Shown: positions 2,098 to 10,644 of the stretch, piece by piece
Numbering within the stretch: position 1 is the stretch's first letter
How the letters are laid out: each line of letters opens with the position of its first letter
DNA from: a virus
Length of the DNA: 31,804 bases
Strand: one strand, 5' to 3'
IMG/VR virus record: IMGVR_UViG_3300047559_000112
Coordinates: 1 to 31,804 of that record
Made by a program: the position numbers and the translations under genes
Notes under the pieces: generated by a model
Told to the model about the DNA's origin: nothing
Seen by the model: only the letters and a program-made list of their open reading frames with translations
Database searches by the model: none

Positions 2098-2135
2098 TTG
2101 ACAACTGGGACTTACACCAAAGGATGCCCAGTCAA
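2098..2135 (-). ncRNA. Family 1 leader RNA element, copy A
   Basis: On the minus strand: CTGGG-CATCC-TTT-GGTG-TAAGT-CCCAG, with flanking TTGA and TCAA extending the closing stem across a 3-nt bulge. It lies between the stop of the HTH gene (2136) and the ATG at 2076. It shares CTGGGCATC and GTGTAAGTCCCAG with the copies near 5440, 6349, 7110 and 7382, and with the divergent copy at 10611. Confidence 0.65.
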
Positions 2136-2630
2136 TTATACGTGTTTCCAGGTAACACCTTTGTGAATCAATTGAATACACATATAGGTAACACCGTATG
2201 CTTCGCCAAGATCTTTGTATGCTTTATAACAAGATGGATAAGTAGACATAAACTTTGGATCTGCTAATAGCGTTTTAATTTCCATCACTTGCGACTTCTT
2301 TAGTTTGGATTCAAAATTACGAGAACGTGATTGTTGTTTAGAAGGGGGTTCAGCTCTTGGAAGCTTGATTACTTTAGGTTCATTCCTGATTTCAATTTGA
2401 CGACCATCTTCTGTCCTGTCAATACGAACAATAGATTGTTTGAGTAGCGTATCTTTTTCCTCAACTGTTTTGGTTAAACCATCAACAGTCTTCTTTGCTA
2501 GTACAACATTACGCGGAAGCTTTATTGATTGTGTAATGCCACTACTATCTTCAACAGAAATCTCAAAGTAATCTTGAGCCTGGAACACTGAAACGGTTTG
2601 AGGATTTTGATAGGTAACAACAGGTTTCAT
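2136..2630 (-). CDS. HTH protein of the homing-endonuclease accessory type
   Basis: The 164-aa product ends in a domain typical of HNH/NUMOD-associated helix-turn-helix modules: LKKSQVMEIKTLL, then SCYKAYKDLGEAYGVTYMC, then IQLIHKGVTWKHV; the ending I..I..G..WKHV is characteristic. The N-terminal 100 residues are unlike any nuclease I know and contain charged coiled-coil-like segments (LTKTVEEKDTLLKQS). No HNH or GIY-YIG catalytic motif is visible, so this looks like a DNA-binding protein rather than an active homing nuclease. It starts 25 nt after the 3' end of tRNA-Leu and could be part of a tRNA-linked mobile module (inference). The start at 2630 lacks a clear Shine-Dalgarno. Confidence 0.7.
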   Translation of the reverse strand: MKPVVTYQNPQTVSVFQAQDYFEISVEDSSGITQSIKLPRNVVLAKKTVDGLTKTVEEKDTLLKQSIVRIDRTEDGRQIEIRNEPKVIKLPRAEPPSKQQSRSRNFESKLKKSQVMEIKTLLADPKFMSTYPSCYKAYKDLGEAYGVTYMCIQLIHKGVTWKHV

Positions 2631-2655
2631 GGAACAAAATGAGTGGGTGTTTGAT

Positions 2656-2741
2656 TGGTAGGAGCGACAGGACTTGCACCTGCACGGTCAAAGACCAACG
2701 CATTTTAAGTGCGTCATGGCTACTAATTACATCACGCTCCC
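2656..2741 (-). tRNA. tRNA-Leu (anticodon UAA), CCA encoded
   Basis: Folded by eye on the minus strand. Acceptor GGGAGCG pairs with CGCTCCT (one G-U), discriminator A, then encoded CCA. The D stem is ATG/CAT. The anticodon stem ACGCA/TGCGT closes the loop CTTAAAA, giving anticodon TAA for UUA codons. A long variable arm (GGTC/GACC), typical of tRNA-Leu, is present. The T stem GCAGG/CCTGT closes loop TGCAAGT, in which position 55 is G instead of the near-universal T. No intron is present, unlike many cyanobacterial tRNA-Leu(UAA) genes. The 5' end overlaps the stop codon and last codons of the gene at 2732-2950. Confidence 0.9.
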
Positions 2742-2950
2742 TCACTTGGACTTACCTCTACATCAATTGATGTGGAGTGCCAAGTGTGATCTTGAGGCAG
2801 GACTTCCATTCCGTAAGTCCAGCTATCGTAGTCATCCTCATTGCGAGGGTCTTCGTCAATCAAGATGTACTGAGGTGAGTTGTCATGGATGTACTCACCA
2901 ATGTTGGCCATAGCCATAGCGAGTAACTGATCATCGGTGTAGTCAGTCAT
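2732..2950 (-). CDS. Small acidic protein, overlapping tRNA-Leu
   Basis: Unrecognised 72-aa very acidic protein (YILIDEDPRNEDDYDSW) with no membrane segment. The ATG at 2950 follows a 10-bp hairpin (2960-2987). Its last codons and TGA stop (2732-2741) lie inside the first ten nucleotides of tRNA-Leu, so either the tRNA is cut from the same leftward transcript or the mRNA ends in tRNA sequence. Acidic phage proteins of this size are often DNA mimics or inhibitors, but nothing here proves that. Confidence 0.65.
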   Translation of the reverse strand: MTDYTDDQLLAMAMANIGEYIHDNSPQYILIDEDPRNEDDYDSWTYGMEVLPQDHTWHSTSIDVEVSPSEGA

Positions 2951-2959
2951 AGGTAGAAA

Positions 2960-2987
2960 CCAGCCCTAGTATCGAGGCTAAGGCTGG
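2960..2987 (-). other. Leader/intergenic hairpin
   Basis: On the minus strand CCAGCCTTAG pairs with CTAGGGCTGG (10 bp, one G-U) around loop CCTCGATA, followed by TTTCTACC and the ATG at 2950. It fills the gap after the PcfJ-like gene. The short T run makes it a possible weak terminator; its position also matches the leader hairpins found before other left-arm genes. Confidence 0.55.
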
Positions 2988-3001
2988 TAAGCCGTGCGGA
3001 C

Positions 3002-4732
3002 TCAGCTACATGCTAGCTGTTTCTCGCGTTGCTGCAAGACCTCACGGAAAGCTTCTGTGTAAGCTTCACGCTGCTCTTCCGTCAGACGCTGGTTGGCGAC
3101 ACCAGCGATCTGCTTGACGGACATCAGGCCCATATCAACCACCAGTTGGATGGTAAAGGTAGGCTTACCATCAATCATGCATAGCACGATGAAGTGCTTA
3201 CGCTTCTTGATGTCATCGGCATAGTGTGATGCAGAGCCGACGCAGTTACGTACGGCCTGACCCCACATAGCCAACTGATGTGTATCGACAGGCTGGAAGA
3301 ATGACCAGGTCTCACCATTGCGTGTAACCCTGATAGGTTCAGGGAATAGATCTTGACGCAAAGATTCGTTAGGGTTCTGGATCTTCCAAGACTCAGCTTG
3401 GACATAGTCATGGAACTCATTGATGCGCCAACGCTTAGGTGGTGCAAGTTCTCCTTTGTGCTTGAGGATACGGATTGCCATGGAGAATGTATCATTCAGT
3501 TCATGGAATCCATGCCGTGCATAGCCAACATCAGAGTCAACCCATAGGGACCTAGTGTCTTGTTCTTCAAGATACTTACGCATCATTTTGAAGAGCGATG
3601 CAACAGGCATATGCTCACGCAACCAACTAATTAATATATCTTCGTTAGCATCAATGCTGCGCACACGAACGTGATGAAGCTTAATAGAAAGAAGTTCGTT
3701 GTAATAAGTCTGGTAATAATCAAGCGGGCAATCAGGCCAGATGTTGTTGATCCAATCAATAGCATTGATAACCTGGAGGAAAGTATTCCAATCTTGCCTG
3801 ATTGGTTTCTGGTGATTGTTATCCGGATTGTTATAGGTTGCAATGCATCGATCAAGATGTGCTTGTAAAAGCTTCTTGATTGCAGGCTTAGTAATAATGT
3901 GAGCAATAGATTGCAAAGAACTGTAAGTACCAGATGTCATTGTTGCTCTGATATTAAACTCTTCTGCTGCTGCAACAAGTGCATCTACAGTAAAGCCATG
4001 CTTGGGATCAATGAACTCAGACATCTGTTTTGGTAGTTCAATTGCATCAAAGATATTCTTGCAACGGATGCGATCGAATAATCCACGGGAATCTTCCCAT
4101 GTAGGAATGTTTTCACGTAGGCTTTTCTCAAATTCCACTACAACATTGTCTCTGATTTGATAACCCTTCTGGCAATAAAGGTTTGCTGCACGCCACTGGT
4201 AACTACGCAATGTGTATTCATCTTTAGAAGTAATATCCTCCTTGGTTATGTTCATTGAGTAAGTAAAGGTCTGGACACCACGTGCACCTTCGTGCATGAT
4301 GCACTTATCTTTGCTGGTCCAGATGTGATGCGGTGCAGTCTTGGCAGCAGCCGCTGTGTTCTTGAATGCATAAGCATGACCATACACATACTCATCTGCT
4401 TGCTGCTTAGAAGGTAGCCATGCTGCGTACCACACTTGTTCGTAGTGGTAGAGAATGGCAATAACTTTGAGGCGAGCCTGCGGAGTTGCTACGTCCACAG
4501 GCGTAGTAAACACACGGTAACGATCAGGTGCTTTCTGCTGGTTGATGTGATCAATCGCAGCTTGTTGATCTGCTTCACGCACCACGTTGTGTGGGATGAG
4601 ATGGGGAATGTTACCCAGTGGATACTTAGCTTTCTTAGCGGTTGCAGGCTTAGCCTTTTGAGCTAGCACCTTCAGTGTTGGGTCGTAGGCAAGGAGTTCG
4701 GTTTGGAGGTTGGAGGGAAGTTGGAACTGCAT
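3002..4732 (-). CDS. PcfJ-like protein
   Basis: At 576 aa this is the largest left-arm gene. The C-terminal part (about residues 470-560) has the hallmarks of the PcfJ-like family: AVRNCVGSASHYADDIKK, then KRKHFIVLCMIDGKPTFTIQ, then VKQIAGVANQRLTEEQ, the usual order in phage and plasmid members (G..MRNCV..Y, P..TiE, Q..G..N). The N-terminal 450 residues are mixed helical and not recognised. The biochemical role of PcfJ-like proteins is not settled; the name comes from a conjugative plasmid gene. The gene starts at 4732 after a small hairpin (4755-4777) and the shared CACTTAC..CTCAATTCA leader, without a Shine-Dalgarno. A lysine- and alanine-rich stretch lies at residues 25-36. Confidence 0.7.
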   Translation of the reverse strand: MQFQLPSNLQTELLAYDPTLKVLAQKAKPATAKKAKYPLGNIPHLIPHNVVREADQQAAIDHINQQKAPDRYRVFTTPVDVATPQARLKVIAILYHYEQVWYAAWLPSKQQADEYVYGHAYAFKNTAAAAKTAPHHIWTSKDKCIMHEGARGVQTFTYSMNITKEDITSKDEYTLRSYQWRAANLYCQKGYQIRDNVVVEFEKSLRENIPTWEDSRGLFDRIRCKNIFDAIELPKQMSEFIDPKHGFTVDALVAAAEEFNIRATMTSGTYSSLQSIAHIITKPAIKKLLQAHLDRCIATYNNPDNNHQKPIRQDWNTFLQVINAIDWINNIWPDCPLDYYQTYYNELLSIKLHHVRVRSIDANEDILISWLREHMPVASLFKMMRKYLEEQDTRSLWVDSDVGYARHGFHELNDTFSMAIRILKHKGELAPPKRWRINEFHDYVQAESWKIQNPNESLRQDLFPEPIRVTRNGETWSFFQPVDTHQLAMWGQAVRNCVGSASHYADDIKKRKHFIVLCMIDGKPTFTIQLVVDMGLMSVKQIAGVANQRLTEEQREAYTEAFREVLQQREKQLACS

Positions 4733-4754
4733 TGAATTGAGTAGGTAAGTGGAA

Positions 4755-4777
4755 TGGACAGTTTAACGTCATGTCCA
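4755..4777 (-). other. Leader hairpin before the PcfJ-like gene
   Basis: TGGACA and TGTCCA form a 6-bp hairpin with an 11-nt loop on the minus strand, followed by the leader CCACTTACCTACTCAATTCA directly before the ATG at 4732. It is simpler than the family 1 elements but sits in the same place. Confidence 0.45.
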
Positions 4778-4787
4778 GGACGGTTGA

Positions 4788-4973
4788 TCAGTCTTCGTAT
4801 CGATGGATATCTAAGAACATTGATGTTTCTTCAATGTACTGTTCCATGTCATGCGTACCGATCGGTGTCATGACTGGCATGCGCTTTGCGAAGCCAGTAG
4901 CTAGATAGACACGACCTTTGGGACCACGCAGTACAAAGTACCAGCGTTTGAATTCAATTGAGAAGCCAATCAT
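4788..4973 (-). CDS. Small protein, unknown
   Basis: A 61-aa protein. Aromatic and strand-forming residues (FSIEFKRWYFVLRGPKGRVY) suggest a small beta sheet with a short helical tail (MEQYIEETSMFLDI). The ATG overlaps the stop of the upstream gene by one base (TAATG at 4971-4975), indicating coupled translation. No family was recognised. Confidence 0.7.
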   Translation of the reverse strand: MIGFSIEFKRWYFVLRGPKGRVYLATGFAKRMPVMTPIGTHDMEQYIEETSMFLDIHRYED

Positions 4974-5230
4974 TAGTCAGGATCTCCTACTGAAGTGTCG
5001 AGTAATTGCCACTGAGGATCGAGGTGATCAAGATAGGCACAGAAGCCATCTTCATCAAGAGGGATTGGTTCCTCTGGATCCAGCTCAATAGTTGTTTGAC
5101 ACAATGCAGGAGCCCACTCTTCAGGCTCGAAGTGAGTTGCGCGATAGAGCAGGCGCATTTCGTCAACAACTGCTGTAACTGTGACATGAGTGTCAGTGAA
5201 TGAGGTGTCTTCGATTGCAAGGACAGTCAT
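4973..5230 (-). CDS. Small acidic protein, unknown
   Basis: The 85-aa product is taken from the ATG at 5230, which overlaps the upstream stop by one base (TGATG). An upstream in-frame start exists but would lie inside the neighbour. The protein is acidic, with strands MTVLAIEDTSFTDTHVTVTA and a Pro/Glu/Asp-rich C-terminal half (DPEEPIPLDEDGFCAYLD). It is the middle gene of a three-gene coupled set. Function unknown. Confidence 0.7.
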   Translation of the reverse strand: MTVLAIEDTSFTDTHVTVTAVVDEMRLLYRATHFEPEEWAPALCQTTIELDPEEPIPLDEDGFCAYLDHLDPQWQLLDTSVGDPD

Positions 5231-5415
5231 CAGTCTTCGTCGATGTAGGAATAGGTGGAGTACTTGACAAGGCGGTACTTCATCCACAGGCGTGCGGTGT
5301 CGTACTCACCTTCGAATCGTGTTGAATTCAACACATTGTCTGATGCTCTGCGCCGTGCGCAGGCAGCAAGGTTAATGCGATCAAACAAGTTGATGTTGTC
5401 GGTAATAGCAGACAT
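5230..5415 (-). CDS. Small protein, unknown
   Basis: A 61-aa protein, first of a three-gene set joined by 1-nt stop-start overlaps. Its ATG at 5415 is preceded by CCACTTACTCAACTCAGCTC and, further up, by family 1 element B, the same arrangement as at 2076. The sequence (LFDRINLAACARRRASDNV, RLWMKYRLVKYSTYSYIDED) matches no family I know. Confidence 0.7.
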   Translation of the reverse strand: MSAITDNINLFDRINLAACARRRASDNVLNSTRFEGEYDTARLWMKYRLVKYSTYSYIDED

Positions 5416-5439
5416 GAGCTGAGTTGAGTAAGTGGACGG

Positions 5440-5501
5440 GATCTGGGACTTACACCTACGGCTTGTCCTGGACGCGGCGTTGCTTTTCGGATGCCCAGAT
5501 C
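5440..5501 (-). ncRNA. Family 1 leader RNA element, copy B (long loop)
   Basis: The closing stem GATCTGGG/CCCAGATC is longer than in copy A and differs in its outer pairs. Inside are the constant CATCC and GGTGTAAGT, separated by a 32-nt insertion in place of the 3-nt loop of copy A. It fills the gap between the stop at 5503 and the ATG at 5415. The constant core with an expandable inner arm indicates an RNA fold rather than a protein operator. Confidence 0.65.
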
Positions 5502-5502
5502 T

Positions 5503-5703
5503 TTAGATTAACTTAATGTTTCGTTTGCTTAATCCTGTGCCAGGGATGCTGATGGATCCACGGACACCAGACTCACGAGCATTGAGTGTGAGTTGGAACG
5601 GACCAAGTTGAAACGATTTGGTGTACGACTGGACTCCACGTTCTGTGACGTTGAATCCAGCGATGGTCTTGTCAAAGTTGATTGGTGATTTGTCTTTAGT
5701 CAT
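5503..5703 (-). CDS. Small DUF4236-like beta protein
   Basis: A 66-aa protein whose second half, FQLTLNARESGVRGSISIPG followed by TGLS, resembles the short repeated-strand pattern of DUF4236 proteins (GhsLS..G..GsS.tig.PGtGls). The match is by eye and partial. It is joined to the upstream gene by an ATGA overlap at 5700-5703. Function unknown. Confidence 0.65.
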   Translation of the reverse strand: MTKDKSPINFDKTIAGFNVTERGVQSYTKSFQLGPFQLTLNARESGVRGSISIPGTGLSKRNIKLI

Positions 5704-5906
5704 TTGAGGTTGTCAGGTAGGAGTGCCTGAGTTTCGTCATCATCCATATTGGACATTACAAACTTCTCTCCATTGGGGGCAACAAAGCCCCCAATGAAAC
5801 CAACGCCGTGCTTGTCGGCTGATTCTTTCATCTTTGCAACAAGTTGCATAGCTTGAAGTCTTTGCATATCCAAGGAGTCTGGTATGCGAGGAGTGTTGTT
5901 AGTCAT
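5700..5906 (-). CDS. Small protein, unknown
   Basis: A 68-aa protein with a helical N-terminal half (SLDMQRLQAMQLVAKMKESA), then a Gly-rich turn (GVGFIGGFVAPNGEKFVMS) and an acidic tail. It starts at 5906 after the leader AACACCACACCATCCCA, with no Shine-Dalgarno, and overlaps the next gene by ATGA. No family recognised. Confidence 0.65.
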   Translation of the reverse strand: MTNNTPRIPDSLDMQRLQAMQLVAKMKESADKHGVGFIGGFVAPNGEKFVMSNMDDDETQALLPDNLK

Positions 5907-5938
5907 TGGGATGGTGTGGTGTTAACAAGGGAAGTCTA

Positions 5939-5997
5939 CCAGGGAAGTCAAGGACTAAGACATAAGTATGTCCTATATAAATCCAAGGATTCCCTGG
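5939..5997. repeat. Nested inverted repeat (possible cruciform or long leader hairpin)
   Basis: The outer arms CCAGGGAA and TTCCCTGG are an 8-bp perfect inverted repeat. Inside, GGA pairs with TCC, and the perfect GACATA-AG-TATGTC hairpin forms the tip. It lies between the genes ending at 6035 and starting at 5906, so it would be in the leader of the 5906 gene. It does not carry the family 1, 2 or 3 signatures. Confidence 0.55.
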
Positions 5998-6034
5998 TAC
6001 TCCAACGGGGAGTGTGAGGGGGAGTACTTATGTA

Positions 6035-6319
6035 CTACCTGTGCATCTCTTGATGTTCTCTCCATGCAGCAGTGTGCATCTCATCAAGAGTAATGGGCGG
6101 CTCCCCTGGGTCATTAGGTGTTGGATCATAGTCAATGCGTTCTTCAAGCATTGCAATAACTTCTTCTACAACTTCTTCATCCCCTGGCACAAGATGTGCA
6201 GAAGTACATGAACGCTTTGATTCACGTTCAAGGACTGCTTTGAGTAAGTCCACAGCTTCTTGCAGCTTGTGGTACTCGTTTGATTTCCAATCGATCGTGG
6301 GGTACTTGCTGTAAGGCAT
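6035..6319 (-). CDS. Acidic protein, unknown
   Basis: The 94-aa product is taken from the ATG at 6319 (MPYSKYPTIDW). A longer reading from a GTG at 6364 would begin inside leader element C and is rejected. The protein is acidic and helical (LQEAVDLLKAVLERESKRS, DEEVVEEVIAMLEERIDYDP) with a Pro-rich turn near the C-terminus. Family 1 element C lies immediately upstream, and the GAACC-ATG start has no Shine-Dalgarno. Function unknown. Confidence 0.65.
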   Translation of the reverse strand: MPYSKYPTIDWKSNEYHKLQEAVDLLKAVLERESKRSCTSAHLVPGDEEVVEEVIAMLEERIDYDPTPNDPGEPPITLDEMHTAAWREHQEMHR

Positions 6320-6348
6320 GGTTCGTTTGAAGTTGAGGTTGAGGTAGA

Positions 6349-6389
6349 CCTGGGACTTACACACCTAGTTGGCGTCGGTGATGCCCAGG
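6349..6389 (-). ncRNA. Family 1 leader RNA element, copy C
   Basis: The closing stem CCTGGG/CCCAGG extends to ACCTGGG/CCCAGGT here; the inner stem is CACC/GGTG, with constant GTAAGT. The 41-bp block is identical base for base to 7110-7150, but the flanking sequences differ. It lies upstream of the ATG at 6319. Confidence 0.7.
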
Positions 6390-6432
6390 TATTGGCTATT
6401 TGCAGATAACAAACAATATTAAGTACAAATAC

Positions 6433-6801
6433 TTAGCAATAGTGAGGTTTGGTCTCGGGGTACGTATGAGCTAGTGCGTTGGAGAACATTAGCTCATACC
6501 TTGAGTGAGTTGTTGTATCTCCAAGAGACGGCTGCCCTTCGATCTCGTACTCTTCGAAGTACTGGATGTAGGTTTGGATCGCCTGCTTTTTGGAGAAGAT
6601 GCAGTGGCTGAGGACTGGGTATCCTGCTTGGTACCACCATCCGCCTTCTTCCGGACCGCCGTAGTTGAGCGTCGTTTCGTGGATGGTGATAACCGTTGGG
6701 TCTTCATGTTCCCAGTACTTGTGCTGGTTGTAGGCTCCGATTGCGTATCGGGCTTTGTAGGTGTTGGGATAGAACTTCTTGAGTTCTGAGATGTAAGACA
6801 T
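6433..6801 (-). CDS. Unknown 122-aa protein
   Basis: Soluble, aromatic-rich protein (YPNTYKARYAIGAYNQHKYW, GGPEEGGWWYQAGYPV, QAIQTYIQYFEEYEIEGQ). The ATG at 6801 has a good Shine-Dalgarno, GGAG 8 nt upstream, unlike most left-arm genes. A second open frame (6489-6896) runs over most of this gene. The predicted protein looks natural, with many Tyr/Trp and no low complexity, so this frame is likely the primary one. No family recognised. Confidence 0.75.
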   Translation of the reverse strand: MSYISELKKFYPNTYKARYAIGAYNQHKYWEHEDPTVITIHETTLNYGGPEEGGWWYQAGYPVLSHCIFSKKQAIQTYIQYFEEYEIEGQPSLGDTTTHSRYELMFSNALAHTYPETKPHYC

Positions 6802-6896
6802 GATGCAAACTCCGTGATGATGATTGAAATGATTGCGATCAGAATGATGATGATGTCACCGTCATCCCATGCTTGACGCAGTGTGTACTTAGTCAT
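6489..6896 (-). CDS. Candidate overlapping gene: one-TM protein with Ser/Thr/Lys-rich tail
   Basis: The first 32 codons lie in the gap before the 6801 gene and encode a strong membrane segment (DIIIILIAIISIIITEFA), hard to explain as non-coding. The start overlaps the upstream gene's end (stop TAA 6889-6891, ATG 6894-6896). The rest, about 103 codons, overlaps the 122-aa gene in another frame and is rich in Ser, Thr, Lys and Arg, as expected for either an overprinted tail or a chance frame. Alternatives: only the TM part matters, or a ribosomal frameshift near 6801 joins the TM anchor to the 122-aa protein. Confidence 0.5.
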   Translation of the reverse strand: MTKYTLRQAWDDGDIIIILIAIISIIITEFASCLTSQNSRSSIPTPTKPDTQSEPTTSTSTGNMKTQRLSPSTKRRSTTAVRKKADGGTKQDTQSSATASSPKSRRSKPTSSTSKSTRSKGSRLLEIQQLTQGMS

Positions 6897-7080
6897 TGAT
6901 TACGTACCTCTCGTTGTAATGGTCACATGCGTTACGCTCTGCTGAGCTGATATCTTCGATACCATCCCAGTTAGATTGATTGCTTTCACGCATGGCTTGT
7001 TCTTGTTCGTATGCAAGGTCAGCCATGGCATCAAACAAGTCAGCGTTACGCTGTTCGTCGATGAAGTTAGGATCTCTCAT
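6889..7080 (-). CDS. Small acidic protein, unknown
   Basis: The 63-aa product is taken from the ATG at 7080 (MRDPNFIDEQRN), in the leader context CAATTCACACC-ATG. A reading from the GTG at 7125 would start inside element D and is rejected. The protein is acidic and helical (ADLFDAMADLAYEQEQAMRE). Its end overlaps the start of the candidate membrane protein by 8 nt. Function unknown. Confidence 0.65.
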   Translation of the reverse strand: MRDPNFIDEQRNADLFDAMADLAYEQEQAMRESNQSNWDGIEDISSAERNACDHYNERYVIND

Positions 7081-7109
7081 GGTGTGAATTGAGTGAAGTT
7101 TGCAGTGAG

Positions 7110-7150
7110 CCTGGGACTTACACACCTAGTTGGCGTCGGTGATGCCCAGG
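7110..7150 (-). ncRNA. Family 1 leader RNA element, copy D
   Basis: Identical in all 41 bp to copy C at 6349-6389. It occupies the gap between the stop at 7153 and the ATG at 7080, followed by a leader containing ACTTCACTCAATTCACACC. The exact identity points to recent duplication or gene conversion. Confidence 0.7.
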
Positions 7151-7152
7151 GA

Positions 7153-7359
7153 TCAGAAGGTATTGGCCACCCTTGTTGCCAAAGAATCAACAAAGGTTGG
7201 ACCATCCTCTTGGAATGCGAGCATGTATTGTTCACGCTCGTCTTCATCCATCAATGCACCCAGGGTGTGGTGTGCATGATAGAAGGCTAGTGCGTTGACA
7301 ATGGCATACTTCTCATCAACGTTAATGATGAGGTGATACCGCTTGTTCTCTTCGGTCAT
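7153..7359 (-). CDS. Small protein, unknown
   Basis: A 68-aa acidic protein with a strand-forming N-terminus (KRYHLIINVDEKYAIVNALA) and two helices after it (HTLGALMDEDEREQYMLAFQ). ATG at 7359 in the context ATACCATC-ATG, without a Shine-Dalgarno; family 1 element E lies just upstream and copy D directly downstream of the stop. No family recognised. Confidence 0.65.
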   Translation of the reverse strand: MTEENKRYHLIINVDEKYAIVNALAFYHAHHTLGALMDEDEREQYMLAFQEDGPTFVDSLATRVANTF

Positions 7360-7381
7360 GATGGTATGGAATGAAGTAAGC

Positions 7382-7432
7382 CTGGGACTTACACCACGTT
7401 ATTGAGAAGAGTTCTCAAGAGTGGAAGCCCAG
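7382..7432 (-). ncRNA. Family 1 leader RNA element, copy E (branched loop)
   Basis: Closing stem CTGGG/CCCAG; inner stem CCAC/GTGG; constant TGTAAGT. The loop holds an extra perfect hairpin, TTGAGAA-CTC-TTCTCAA. CATC is changed to CTTC here. The different but pairing inner stem (CCAC/GTGG against CACC/GGTG in C and D) is compensatory evidence for an RNA fold. Confidence 0.65.
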
Positions 7433-7436
7433 ACAT

Positions 7437-7661
7437 TTAGTGAGGAATGAAGTCAGTGTCGTTGAGTAGCTGATGAATTGTCAAACAGTCTTCAGCTACT
7501 TCCTCTGGTGTGCAACCCTCCCAGTCATCGGTTTGATCCTCGATGACTTCGCAGCCAGCATCTTCGAGTTGGTCAATGAATCGATTCCAGCTCTTTGGTA
7601 CACCCCAGACGTGAGCATAACGCCCACTCCGGTCAGTAACCAGTGCGATTTTGAATGACAT
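7437..7661 (-). CDS. Small acidic protein, unknown
   Basis: The 74-aa product starts at the ATG at 7661 (MSFKIALVTDRSGRYAHVWG) in context AACACC-ATG. Longer in-frame readings start inside the upstream gene and give a low-complexity Ser/Pro/Leu stretch, so they are rejected. It looks like a small alpha/beta domain: strand KIALVTD, helix KSWNRFIDQLEDAGCEVIE, then a second helix PEEVAEDCLTIHQLL. It overlaps the end of the 7839 gene by 29 nt. Function unknown. Confidence 0.7.
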   Translation of the reverse strand: MSFKIALVTDRSGRYAHVWGVPKSWNRFIDQLEDAGCEVIEDQTDDWEGCTPEEVAEDCLTIHQLLNDTDFIPH

Positions 7662-7839
7662 GGTGTTGTTTCGGTGAAGGGTCAGTGATGTCAACGCCCA
7701 CCAGTGCAGTAGCGGTGATGGTGGCGATGACGATGGAGAAGAGAGCAATGGCAAGCGACCAACGTCGAGTCTCATGAGTCTCACCATAAGAATCGAGGGT
7801 AATGTACTTGCCTTTGCCCATGGAGTAAATGGTCTTCAT
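7633..7839 (-). CDS. Small single-pass membrane protein
   Basis: The 68-aa product starts at the ATG at 7839, immediately after the stop of the 8113 gene (TGA-C-ATG). Residues about 29-48 (LAIALFSIVIATITATALVG) form one membrane segment after a basic residue pair (ETRRWS), so the N-terminus is probably cytoplasmic. The tail is short and polar. Function unknown. Confidence 0.65.
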   Translation of the reverse strand: MKTIYSMGKGKYITLDSYGETHETRRWSLAIALFSIVIATITATALVGVDITDPSPKQHHVIQNRTGY

Positions 7840-7840
7840 G

Positions 7841-8113
7841 TCAGTTGGTTGCAAGGATGTAACGGCAATTTGTAAAAGGACGTTCCGTAAAAGGTTCTGC
7901 AAAAAGTTCTTCGGCAGACCTCCATGTACCTTTGATCTGGAAATCAAGGCACTCCCAATCACCCTTGGCTAAATACTCGTCAATATCACTGGGACATGCG
8001 ACCCAGTACATATATACGCATTGATCAGTAAACTCGAGATAATAATCAGTCACCTCAAGTTTGTACTCTCGCAATGCCTGCATGATGTCGTGATGGTCAA
8101 TCGAAATTGCCAT
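7841..8113 (-). CDS. Unknown 90-aa acidic protein
   Basis: Starts at 8113 in context CGACACC-ATG, with a structured leader upstream (8130-8184). Aromatic-rich acidic protein with strands LEVTDYYLEFTDQCVYMYWV and a second half EYLAKGDWECLDFQIKGTW. No family recognised. It is the first gene of a three-gene overlapping group reaching to 7437. Confidence 0.7.
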   Translation of the reverse strand: MAISIDHHDIMQALREYKLEVTDYYLEFTDQCVYMYWVACPSDIDEYLAKGDWECLDFQIKGTWRSAEELFAEPFTERPFTNCRYILATN

Positions 8114-8129
8114 GGTGTCGTAGCAATGG

Positions 8130-8184
8130 TGTAGTAGCCCTCGTTGAGGACTACAGAGAAGGGCCGAAGCCCCTCAGTGTAGTC
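8130..8184 (-). ncRNA. Family 2 leader RNA element, copy d (competing stems)
   Basis: On the minus strand GACTACA pairs with TGTAGTC around an inner hairpin GGGC-TTCG-GCCC. The same middle segment can instead form GTAGTCCTC-AAC-GAGGGCTAC with downstream sequence. Both cannot form together, as in attenuator-type leaders. It lies between the stop at 8186 and the ATG at 8113. Its TGTAGT..CTC..GAGGGCTA core also resembles part of family 3. Confidence 0.55.
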
Positions 8185-8185
8185 G

Positions 8186-8431
8186 TCAGTCTTGTTCCAG
8201 TTGCCTCCGTTCCCAACGAAGCAGATCCCGGTTGAGATCTACCTTACGCTGCACGATAGCAACGAAGGGCATGAGATCAGCAAACTGCCTCATACCGTCT
8301 TGCCATTGAAAGAAAACTTCAAGTGCCGCTTGACGCTGCACTTCAAGCTCCTGGTCGATAACAGGTGCATCCCTCCTGGCAAGCAGGCGTGCATCTTGAG
8401 TAAGCAAATGCTCAACAGCTTTAGGAGTCAT
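8186..8431 (-). CDS. Helical protein, unknown
   Basis: An 81-aa, almost wholly helical, charged protein (DAPVIDQELEVQRQAALEVF, VQRKVDLNRDLLRWERRQLE) that could form a coiled coil. ATG at 8431 in context GGAGAACC-ATG, where GGAG is a usable Shine-Dalgarno; the family 2 element a is upstream. No family recognised. Confidence 0.7.
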   Translation of the reverse strand: MTPKAVEHLLTQDARLLARRDAPVIDQELEVQRQAALEVFFQWQDGMRQFADLMPFVAIVQRKVDLNRDLLRWERRQLEQD

Positions 8432-8459
8432 GGTTCTCCAGATGGTGTCGTGTGGTGTA

Positions 8460-8534
8460 GTGCAGAGCTAAACCCTGCAGAAAACCTACCGTCCGATACG
8501 AATTCGTATCAAGACGGAAAGGTTAAGTGCAGAG
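8460..8534 (-). ncRNA. Family 2 leader RNA element, copy a, with palindromic tip
   Basis: Minus-strand order: CTGCA-CTTAACC, CCGTC, the palindrome GATACGAATTCGTATC, GACGG, GGTTTT-CTGCAG, loop GGTTTAGCT, CTGCA. The middle TGCAG can pair with the upstream CTGCA (long stem with mismatches) or with the downstream CTGCA (small hairpin). It fills the gap between the stop at 8536 and the start at 8431. Confidence 0.6.
8495..8510. repeat. 16-bp perfect palindrome, copy 1
   Basis: GATACGAATTCGTATC reads the same on both strands. The identical 19-bp block cGATACGAATTCGTATCaa recurs at 10771-10789. It could be an operator or recombination site, or only the stem tip of the leader RNA it lies in. Confidence 0.85.
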
Positions 8535-8535
8535 A

Positions 8536-8739
8536 TCAGTTCATGTACTTACTGTTGATGCAGTAGTACGTGTCCCCAAGGAATCCCTGGGTGTAGATCA
8601 GATTGTGTCCTGGTCTGTCATGGCACGTTGCTTGGTAATGCTTGTTGAGGAGCTTCTGCGCTCCAACAGATGCAAGTAGACCCAAACCAGTGCCAAGAAT
8701 GACAGCAACACAGGGCTCAACAGGGATGTAGTTACGCAT
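8536..8739 (-). CDS. Small protein with one membrane segment
   Basis: A 67-aa protein. Residues about 9-26 (PCVAVILGTGLGLLASVG) are hydrophobic and Gly-rich, giving a likely membrane or signal-anchor segment; the rest is polar with Cys residues (ATCHDRPGH, TYYCIN). ATG at 8739, 2 nt after the upstream stop, with GGTAGG upstream as ribosome-binding site. It resembles the 9364-9552 protein in plan (short hydrophobic Gly/Ala segment, then a Lys-rich turn and Cys-containing tail), perhaps a distant paralogue. Confidence 0.6.
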   Translation of the reverse strand: MRNYIPVEPCVAVILGTGLGLLASVGAQKLLNKHYQATCHDRPGHNLIYTQGFLGDTYYCINSKYMN

Positions 8740-8741
8740 AA

Positions 8742-8930
8742 TCAGTTACCTACCTTGGGAGTGATGATAAATGCCATGTCGTTAGGCATAACAAGTGCCG
8801 CTGCACGACAACGGATGTCATGTAGCTTGGAGCCAACGTCAGCCTTGGTAGGCATCTTGGCATTCTCTACTGCCGCCGCAGTGTTAACCAATGCAGCAGC
8901 AATGTTCTTGCGGATGTTGAACCTGGTCAT
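8742..8930 (-). CDS. Small protein, unknown
   Basis: The 62-aa product starts at the ATG at 8930 (MTRFNIRKNIAAALVNTAAA) in context TTCGACACC-ATG. Earlier in-frame starts lie inside family 2 element b and are rejected. Basic N-terminus, Ala-rich helix, then a possible strand MAFIITPKV at the end. Not recognised. Confidence 0.65.
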   Translation of the reverse strand: MTRFNIRKNIAAALVNTAAAVENAKMPTKADVGSKLHDIRCRAAALVMPNDMAFIITPKVGN

Positions 8931-8948
8931 GGTGTCGAATGGAATGGT

Positions 8949-9022
8949 GTACAGGATGTTGAGTCCTGCAGTAAACCCACCGCCGTAGTACATACATACC
9001 ACGACGGAAGGGTTAAGTGCAG
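8949..9022 (-). ncRNA. Family 2 leader RNA element, copy b
   Basis: Minus-strand order: CTGCA-CTTAACCC, CCGTCG, an inner loop, CGGCGG, GGGTTTA-CTGCAGGA, loop CTCAACA, TCCTGTA. TGCAGGA pairs with TCCTGTA (one G-U), or its TGCAG pairs with the upstream CTGCA. It shares the hairpin TACAGGATGTTGAGTCCTG (plus strand, 19 bp) exactly with copy c at 9313. Confidence 0.6.
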
Positions 9023-9025
9023 AAG

Positions 9026-9292
9026 TCAGATGTACTGGTGAGCTCTCTCAATCTCGAGCTCTAGACCTCTGTCGTAATGCTCCTTCATCTTCTGGTACAA
9101 CTCCTTGGTTGATGTTGGCATGTCATACTCAAGCGTAAAGACATCCATGTCAACCCACTCGGAAGTAAACTCGTCATTGGCATCAAGACCAGTGACGCGC
9201 TTCTCGAAGTGTAGTTGGGTTGATTCTCCGCCGTACCAAGTCACACGGTAGTGCTTGTCCAACGGAGGAGCATAAATCATTACAGGTGTCAT
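9026..9292 (-). CDS. Unknown 88-aa acidic protein
   Basis: Starts at 9292 (MTPVMIYAPPLDKHYRVTWY); a second Met four codons on is possible. Beta-rich first part (YRVTWYGGESTQLHFEKRV, WVDMDVFTLEYDM), helical end (STKELYQKMKEHYDRGLELE). No family recognised. Family 2 element c lies directly upstream. Confidence 0.65.
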   Translation of the reverse strand: MTPVMIYAPPLDKHYRVTWYGGESTQLHFEKRVTGLDANDEFTSEWVDMDVFTLEYDMPTSTKELYQKMKEHYDRGLELEIERAHQYI

Positions 9293-9312
9293 GAGTTGTG
9301 TTGGTAGTGGGA

Positions 9313-9361
9313 TACAGGATGTTGAGTCCTGTTGAGGGGACCGTAGTCCCCAGAGCAGGAG
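9313..9361 (-). ncRNA. Family 2 leader RNA element, copy c
   Basis: Minus-strand order: TCCTG, inner hairpin GGGGAC-TAC-GGTCCCC, CAGGA, loop CTCAACA, TCCTG. CAGGA can pair with either TCCTG copy. This is the plainest example of the family 2 plan: a direct repeat with its complement between the two copies. Confidence 0.6.
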
Positions 9362-9363
9362 TC

Positions 9364-9552
9364 TTAGATCTTGTAGCCGTTAATAACGCACCAATCACGG
9401 TGGATTTGATCGGCCTCCTTGGGCCAATCATGTGTCAGGCATTGCTTAGTTGTCGCCTTATCAATGAAGTATGCAGCAACAGGACCGGCAAGTATACCGA
9501 GTCCGAATGCCTGGATAACAATGAGTGCAGCCACGTTCTGTCCTTTGATCAT
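9364..9552 (-). CDS. Small single-pass membrane protein
   Basis: The 62-aa product starts at the ATG at 9552 (MIKGQNVAALIVIQAFGLGI). Residues about 7-26 form a hydrophobic segment; the rest is polar with two Cys (KQCLTHDW, RDWCVINGYK). A longer frame upstream runs through leader element 3c and is rejected. The plan is similar to the 8536-8739 protein. Function unknown. Confidence 0.65.
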   Translation of the reverse strand: MIKGQNVAALIVIQAFGLGILAGPVAAYFIDKATTKQCLTHDWPKEADQIHRDWCVINGYKI

Positions 9553-9591
9553 GGTCGTGTGGTGTAGGTAAATGCCACTGAGTTGTGGCAA

Positions 9592-9641
9592 TACTGAAGG
9601 CAGGGATTGCACCTGCCAATGCCGCTTTAACGGACTCAGTC
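9592..9641 (-). ncRNA. Family 3 leader RNA element, copy c (divergent)
   Basis: Closing stem ACTGA/TCAGT; first arm CCG/CGG with loop TTAAAG; second arm GGCAGG-TGCAATC-CCTGCC, a 7-nt loop like that of a tRNA T-arm. Its 5' edge overlaps the last codons of the 9636-9917 gene. A further hairpin GCCAC-AACTCA-GTGGC follows before the ATG at 9552. Confidence 0.5.
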
Positions 9642-9917
9642 TTCGTCTTGCCAATCAAGGCGTTCTTGCTCACGCTGACGCATGAACTTGATAATGCCTT
9701 GAACTTGGGCAAGTGTTAAGTAACCTGTCGGGTTACATGTGCCTGGAAACCACGCTTCATACGTAGTCTCTGAGCCTGGATCGTTGGCTGCCATCAGCCC
9801 TGAACCTTTGGGTCCAGTGACGATAGAAATCTCGCCAACGAGACTATCGATGTATACAAGGTGGAAACCACCAGGTACACCAGGGTGTGGTACCCAACCA
9901 TTAGCCAGGTCGATCAT
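9636..9917 (-). CDS. Unknown 93-aa protein
   Basis: The start at 9917 (MIDLANGWVPHPGVPGG) is preferred because GGAGAG lies 6 nt upstream; other in-frame Met codons at 9929 and 9944 are possible. Longer readings begin inside family 3 element a. The protein is Gly/Pro-rich and may be a small beta domain (GFHLVYIDSLVGEISIVTG), with a helical charged end (VQGIIKFMRQREQERL). Its 5' region is similar at DNA level to that of the next gene upstream, suggesting a shared module boundary. No family recognised. Confidence 0.6.
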   Translation of the reverse strand: MIDLANGWVPHPGVPGGFHLVYIDSLVGEISIVTGPKGSGLMAANDPGSETTYEAWFPGTCNPTGYLTLAQVQGIIKFMRQREQERLDWQDED

Positions 9918-9959
9918 GGATCTCTCCATAGGTGTGGTGCCCATCTCCACAGGGGGGGC

Positions 9960-10018
9960 AATAACTGAGGCTAGGAGTTGCACCTAGCCCTCCTCAATGA
10001 GGAGTACTACAGCTCAGT
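9960..10018 (-). ncRNA. Family 3 leader RNA element, copy a (three-way junction)
   Basis: Minus strand: ACTGAG, single-stranded CTGTAGTA, arm CTCCTC-ATT-GAGGAG, arm GGCTAGG-TGCAACT-CCTAGCC, then TCAGTT closing on AACTGA. Thirty-four bases at one end and eighteen at the other are identical to copy b; the first arm's loop differs between them while still pairing. Confidence 0.65.
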
Positions 10019-10020
10019 TG

Positions 10021-10299
10021 TCAGAAGTTACCCACGTATTCGTCCTCGTCTCCTATCAAGGAGAGAGGAACTAAATCCACTGTCCCAACGCACCCGTTGG
10101 GCACGTAAGGATCTTCGAACCACTCCTGGCAGGAGCGAATTGCGGGCTGGGGCGCGAAACTCCAGTGATAGCGTTGCCCACTGTCGTGGGCGTAAACCAT
10201 GGGGCCAACTCCACCATGGACTTGAAAGGGAACCGAGTAGGTCCCGTTGTGGGTAGCTCCCACGATGGGATGTCCGTGATCGTTGCAGGTGAAAGCCAC
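10021..10299 (-). CDS. Unknown 92-aa protein (GTG start)
   Basis: The GTG at 10299 is chosen because AGGAG lies 6 nt upstream. No ATG is available in frame until far inside, and the frame upstream runs into family 3 element b. The sequence (VAFTCNDHGHPIVGATHNG, MVYAHDSGQRYHWSFAPQ, GTVDLVPLSLIGDEDEYVG) looks like a compact beta protein, with His and aromatic residues. No family recognised. Confidence 0.6.
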   Translation of the reverse strand: MAFTCNDHGHPIVGATHNGTYSVPFQVHGGVGPMVYAHDSGQRYHWSFAPQPAIRSCQEWFEDPYVPNGCVGTVDLVPLSLIGDEDEYVGNF

Positions 10300-10341
10300 A
10301 GGAAACTCCTGTTGTGTGCGGTACCCATCTCCGCTGTGGGT

Positions 10342-10401
10342 AATAACTGAGGCTAGGAGTTGCACCTAGCCCTCCAATAAAATGGAGTACTACAGCTCAG
10401 T
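10342..10401 (-). ncRNA. Family 3 leader RNA element, copy b (three-way junction)
   Basis: Same plan as copy a. The first arm is CTCCA-TTTTAT-TGGAG, with a different loop from copy a, while the T-arm-like second arm and the ACTGAG/TCAGTT closing stem are identical. It sits between the stop at 10397 and the GTG at 10299. Confidence 0.65.
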
Positions 10402-10594
10402 GTTGCAGACGGCAGTGCTCATCAGTTAGTCCCCGGTATGCCGGATACTCCTGCGAGCGGCGCACGTCTGCTTGCCATCGAGCCTGGAACGGACCTGCTG
10501 TCACCTGCTCCACGTACTGGAACTCAGTGACAGGAAAAACTTCCTGGAGGAAGTACTCGCCGTTACGCTCGATGATGTTGACGGTGTAGTCCAC
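10397..10594 (-). CDS. Small protein, unknown (GTG start)
   Basis: The 65-aa product starts at the GTG at 10594 (VDYTVNIIERNGEYFLQEVF), preceded by AGGAG 5 nt upstream. A longer reading from a TTG at 10789 would run through both the palindrome and leader element 1F and is rejected. The N-terminal half is beta-like; the rest is polar and Arg/Gln-rich. Not recognised. Confidence 0.65.
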   Translation of the reverse strand: MDYTVNIIERNGEYFLQEVFPVTEFQYVEQVTAGPFQARWQADVRRSQEYPAYRGLTDEHCRLQH

Positions 10595-10610
10595 GGTTAC
10601 TCCTGGTAAA

Positions 10611-10644
10611 CTTGGGCTTACACCACTGAAGTGTGGATGCCAAG
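10611..10644 (-). ncRNA. Family 1 leader RNA element, copy F (divergent, compensated stem)
   Basis: The closing stem is CTTGG/CCAAG instead of CTGGG/CCCAG, so both strands changed together. The inner stem is CCAC/GTGG with loop ACTTCA; GGCATCC and TGTAAGC are retained. It lies just upstream of the GTG at 10594. This copy gives the best covariation evidence. Confidence 0.65.

Follow-up and report, generated by a model that had tools for sequence, protein, structure and literature searches.

A structured RNA element with a nearly invariant core recurs between the genes of S-EIV1-like cyanophages and other viruses

What is a small hairpin likely to do when it is repeated six times, always on one strand, among the small leftward genes of an uncultivated virus? 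The window that raises this question is the whole stretch of DNA analyzed here, 31,804 nt in length (positions 1 to 31,804 of IMG/VR record IMGVR_UViG_3300047559_000112). A sequence-only reading had taken the six copies for a leader RNA element of no named class, under selection for RNA structure, and the three tests set for it in advance (further copies in related phages, covariation, and a match in Rfam) all came out in its favor. We regard the element as almost certainly a real, undescribed class of structured RNA. The term leader did not survive, for reasons that lie in the genomic position of the copies.

All six minus-strand copies are present in the sequence, and each is strongly scored by covariance model R1, which was trained on 49 diverse copies (alignment A2), none of them from the window, with close relatives of some window copies (e.g., F) included. 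The model returned exactly six strong window matches, all on the minus strand (E 8e-11 to 1.4e-7, 147 kb searched), and the next-best match, at 12.2 bits, is at chance level. With limits drawn at a 5-bp closing stem, copy A (2105-2131, 45.7 bits) runs through CTGGG, CAT, CC-TTT-GG, TGTAAGT, and CCCAG; it lies 4 nt past the stop codon at 2136-2138, and the ATG at 2076 follows 28 nt further on. Copy B (5443-5498, 40.7 bits) has a long apical region and sits 4 nt past the stop at 5503-5505, with the ATG at 5415 27 nt further on. Copy C (6350-6388, 46.1 bits; P2 stem CACC/GGTG) and copy D (7111-7149, 41.3 bits) are identical in element sequence and differ in their flanks: C begins 44 nt past the stop at 6433-6435 and D 3 nt past the stop at 7153-7155, each with an ATG (at 6319 and 7080, respectively) 30 nt further on. 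In copy E (7382-7432, 35.0 bits), CTT replaces CAT and the loop holds an additional hairpin, TTGAGAA/TTCTCAA (fold z -4.73); the copy is found 4 nt past the stop at 7437-7439 and 22 nt before the ATG at 7359. Copy F (10611-10644, 38.0 bits) has the closing stem CTTGG/CCAAG, P2 CCAC/GTGG, and TGTAAGC, with a GTG start (10594) about 16 nt downstream.

Copy E departs from the CTGGG-CATC described earlier, with CTT where the other copies have CAT, and the six copies, though all present, are not six independent witnesses, given the identity of C and D. The claim that each copy stands directly 5' of a start codon was right about the side and loose about the distance (22-30 nt from ATG in A-E, about 16 nt from GTG in F), and it saw half of the positional pattern, the tighter spacing being upstream, to the preceding stop codon (3-4 nt for A, B, D, and E; 44 nt for C). 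Folded singly, the window copies give z from -0.97 to -4.73 and most are only moderately stable, so the structural case rests on comparison rather than on energy.

A degenerate seventh copy is possible at 2743-2786 (minus strand; CACTTGG...GTAAGTCCAAGTG; 12.2 bits, E 0.78), 1 nt before tRNA-Leu at 2656-2741, with homologues before tRNA-Leu at three other loci (L018, L011, L023). Its assignment is uncertain because an ORF (...DHTWH.TSI.V.VSPS...) reads through the element-like sequences at all four places, which may represent either an overlap of coding and RNA signals or degenerate copies. Elsewhere in the window, the gene starting at 4732 has the CCACTTAC..CTCAATTCA leader common to element-bearing genes (4733-4790), but the hairpin preceding it differs (GGACA/TGTCC). 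A second hairpin family occupies 9598-9650, 9960-10010, and 10340-10400, with 7-nt loops (TGCAATC/TGCAACT) on long perfect stems, and resembles a tRNA T-arm stacked on an acceptor-like stem.

Across viruses, the element is built from a closing stem, P1, of 5-7 bp, a nearly invariant, asymmetric internal loop, and a hairpin, P2, whose length is free; its core, GGC(A/G)N–hairpin–N(G/A)UAAG(Y)CC, is nearly invariant. In the internal loop, C-R-N on the 5' side lies opposite N-R-U-A-A-G-Y on the 3' side. C11, U35, A36, A37, and G38 are unchanged in 146/146 rows, a constancy that the search itself favors; since C11 and UAAG are constant, C11 and G38 likely pair, which would leave Y39 bulged. Changes on both sides of the closing and inner stems, noted earlier for the window, are confirmed there and far exceeded by the covariation in other viruses, and the variable loop size was likewise borne out. 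In pattern matches gathered without a pairing filter (all 143 matches, and a non-redundant set of 64 copies), P1 pairs 4-6 and P2 pairs 3-4 form more frequently than in any of 1000 shuffles. The covariation score of the A2 MAFFT alignment is 0.351, compared with 0.120 when shuffled and at most 0.114 when slid, and that of a model-fitted alignment of 146 distinct rows is 0.426 compared with 0.139 when shuffled. This significant covariation supports selection on RNA structure. Positions 13 x 33, which divergent copies hinted might covary, are not significant in alignment A3.

The capping loops bear on the nature of the folding molecule. Among non-redundant minimal forms, 13/41 carry a GNRA cap (about 3% expected by chance) and 1/41 a cap that is GNNA but not GNRA, and UUCG closes 7/9 of the one-pair minimal forms; because these loops are far above chance and GNRA is preferred to other GNNA, they indicate that the element folds as RNA, not DNA. 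Unusually for an RNA helix, the stems accommodate G.U no better than A.C (0.30 vs 0.38 observed/expected), whereas a tRNA acceptor control, pre-filtered for paired stems including G.U, gives 0.74 for G.U and 0.12 for A.C. This poor tolerance had suggested a DNA hairpin (an N4-promoter-like or single-stranded DNA site), a candidate set back by the RNA tetraloops.

Many more copies were found in related viruses. IMG/VR holds at least 119 stretches with a GGG/CCC closing stem, at least 76 with TAGG/CCTA, at least 17 with TTGG/CCAA, and at least 5 with CGG/CCG, four sets that overlap (some contigs fall in several) and include some matches that are not genuine; a permuted pattern of equal length had one IMG/VR match, about the chance level. 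Prokaryotic genomes (GTDB, 257 Gb) yielded five stretches only, about chance by estimate. Four of them (L124, L125, L126, L128) are probably chance, and the fifth (L127:3535-3575) is a well-paired copy that looks genuine by its stems, on a contig binned as Oscillospiraceae, which suggests that the element may reach beyond cyanophages. Element-bearing loci span 29% to 63% GC, and the carriers comprise S-EIV1-like cyanophages, relatives of S-CBWM1/S-TIM5 (by major head protein), and GC-rich contigs with phrog_4652. In 28 records with matches, 1-7 copies occur per record, all on one strand in each.

Megablast of the window and short-query blastn gave no useful match to relatives among cultured phages. 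By tblastn, a window virion protein is 73% identical to one in the cultured Synechococcus phage S-EIV1, which shares the layout of small leftward genes followed by rightward virion genes. S-EIV1 carries two copies on the minus strand between small genes (40724-40789 and 41434-41480), each with a single core change (CGT; TATAAGT) that exact patterns missed; copy 41434 belonged to the model training set and copy 40724 did not. No copies are found in S-CBWM1, although in the L003 group the element is followed by a major head protein related to that of S-CBWM1.

As the earlier reading supposed, no named class covers the element. A search of the whole window with Rfam 15 (4227 families) at the gathering threshold returned tRNA only, and permissive E-values applied to copies C-E and several further copies added only tRNA and sub-threshold chance matches, the best among the elements tested being Histone3 at 17.2 bits against a 34-bit cut-off. 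Searches of the open-licence literature for the core sequence and for surveys of phage structured RNAs turned up no description of the element. Considerably more than a hundred stretches of DNA from uncultivated viruses, together with cultured S-EIV1, carry this unnamed structured RNA with its nearly invariant core.

The element is spaced most tightly on its upstream side. A stop codon usually precedes it, most often by 3–4 nt. In 90% of cases, an ORF of 60 codons or more terminates shortly 5' of the element, compared with 15% in the control (135/186 compared with 19% in a wider set). Over 58 unrelated upstream families, the gap is 2-5 nt in 24 and below 2 nt in none, although part of this spacing may just reflect compact genomes. 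Downstream lie unrelated genes at about 28 nt (68 unrelated families, median gap 28.5 nt), tRNA genes almost directly (elements end at or beside them in L018, L033, L051, L162, L177, L194, and L211), or repeated non-coding units. With family counts that are minima (at least 58 upstream and at least 68 downstream), the element is not a gene-specific leader.

The non-coding units, about 150 nt long, stand 3-5 in tandem, and an element opens each one. At L163:2919-3640, five successive units of about 150 nt open with the element and close with a GCCTG/CAGGC-type hairpin, contain no tRNA, and look like an array of small RNAs. The unit order is element, about 85 nt of T/C-rich sequence, and a GCCTG-TACTTAAA-CAGGC hairpin; tandem non-coding units are also seen in L167, L169, L171, L179, L181, and L190. 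They lie behind a gene with a phrog_4652-like ending (phrog_4652 itself was matched in the L163 contig). In GC-rich contigs (L001, L010, L021, L030, L055, L089, L104, L105, L114), a phrog_4652-like gene and the element are followed by GGCNNGGC repeats, which are long and apparently non-coding. In more than one separate group of viruses, phrog_4652, which has no known function, precedes non-coding repeats. As a partner protein of the element it was rejected, being absent from 28/35 records searched, S-EIV1 included.

Taken together, position, generality, and RNA-type loops fit a separator of transcript units, and we tentatively favor, at somewhat less than an even chance, an intercistronic RNA-processing or insulating signal. 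A small cis-acting RNA on the coding strand would serve as a generic separator, whether between ORFs, between an ORF and a tRNA, or in tandem non-coding units; its invariant loop would be recognized by an RNase or be itself catalytic, and near the element the polycistronic transcript would be cleaved or have its ends protected. From the spacing and standard ribosome footprints, we expect the 5' strand of P1 to be masked by a ribosome that terminates at the neighboring stop codon, so that the fold could form only once that ribosome has left. Against processing, a hairpin directly beside a tRNA might obstruct RNase P; against a catalytic loop, a free-standing one might have a permuted form, and the permuted form of the element gave one match in IMG/VR (about chance), a result compatible with catalysis. 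The boldest version, in which a new minimal self-cleaving ribozyme class or general intercistronic processing signal, shared by many unrelated uncultivated phages, cuts mRNA, tRNA, and small-RNA precursors with ribosome-gated folding, appears unlikely at present.

A regulatory leader, in which the loop would bind a small molecule or a host or phage protein and control downstream translation or transcription as a riboswitch or phage translational operator does, is possible but rather doubtful. Aptamers and protein sites typically have such a small invariant core, with covarying stems and free loops around it; about 28 nt separate most copies from a downstream ORF, and with several copies per genome the element could define a regulon. 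The downstream genes, however, are not related through the metabolism of any ligand, as those of a riboswitch would be, but comprise the 68 unrelated families together with tRNA genes and non-coding arrays; no Rfam riboswitch or leader matches; spacing is tightest toward the preceding stop codon; and Shine-Dalgarno-like sites are equally common with the element (49/200) and without it (490/2176), which gives no sign of a special role in translation.

Gene gain and loss speak for a function at the DNA level, in which the element would be a recombination hairpin or cassette junction, akin to integron attC or REP sites, serving mainly to swap, gain, and lose [ORF + element] units; we nevertheless judge this distinctly unlikely. 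Relatives differ by the gain and loss of such units, and the breakpoints fall at elements: at least one end falls at an element in 30 of 120 distinct indels between related contigs (6.3 expected), and both ends do so in eight, compared with 0.1 expected at random positions and 0.75 for similarly spaced gene junctions in the same loci. These eight include one event counted three times, leaving about six independent ones. One such unit in the window (7111-7381, minus strand), comprising the gene MTEENKRYHLI... (7153-7359), its leader, and copy D, is absent from the related L087 contig, where the homologue of copy E joins the next gene directly. The sparing use of G.U pairs and the occurrence of C and D as one element in differing flanks point the same way. 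Neighboring elements are also exchanged, and the resulting chimeras differ in the side of the loop on which the crossover falls, as expected of homologous recombination between repeats; fixed-point site-specific recombination was rejected on this disagreement. Further against a DNA-level function are the GNRA and UUCG caps, the constant placement on the coding strand, and the lack of attC-like conserved boxes (RYYYAAC and GTTRRRY at the hairpin base) in the element flank logos.

A transcription element that acts just past the stop codon by pausing, attenuation, antitermination, or Rho protection seems quite improbable: a few nt past the stop is where transcription uncouples from translation, but the stem is generally not followed directly by the U run of an ordinary intrinsic terminator (at most 35/64 T per position in the downstream logo, and none in GC-rich copies), and processive antitermination needs no closely spaced multiple copies. 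Shared ancestry alone, as a recombination-spread repeat without present function, would suit the exchange of sequence between neighboring elements but is scarcely credible, as both stems carry compensatory changes while the core stays invariant over GC 0.29-0.63, which requires continuing selection.

The association of the element with unrelated genes, tRNAs, and small-RNA-like arrays alike implies a function general to transcript organization, and cultured S-EIV1 offers a laboratory system able to separate processing, regulation, and recombination.

Several known systems share features with the element. Like an integron attC site in a gene cassette, it is a folded site beside a stop codon, gained and lost as a unit with an ORF, but it has RNA-type loops and neither R-box sequences nor a fixed crossover point, and no integrase is known here. 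Rfam motifs of cyanobacteria and cyanophages (e.g., glnA, Downstream-peptide, PhotoRC) are likewise small structured RNAs of similar genomes, yet none reached threshold on the window or further copies. G-UGUAAGU-C matches a tRNA T-loop in length and in its U-N-N-R-A pattern, but the G on one side and the C on the other pair with P2 and P1 rather than with each other. Twister-sister (RF02681), whose hairpin loop resembles UGYAAGU (a lead only), and other small self-cleaving ribozymes also hold a small invariant core within covarying stems, but the element matches none in Rfam even permissively, has two helices rather than three or four, and shows no permuted form beyond chance in IMG/VR, such a form being common among these ribozymes but not required. 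Conserved cis-acting intercistronic hairpins are themselves a known kind of thing, but the sources searched contain no description of this RNA family. The intercistronic RNase III sites of T7 are, like the element, hairpins with an asymmetric internal loop that separate the cistrons of a polycistronic phage RNA. RNase III needs about two turns of duplex, a near-continuous helix of about 20 bp, whereas the element has a P1 of 5-7 bp and a P2 of usually 1-7 bp (together usually 7-12 bp); its internal loop is invariant and its apical part unconstrained.
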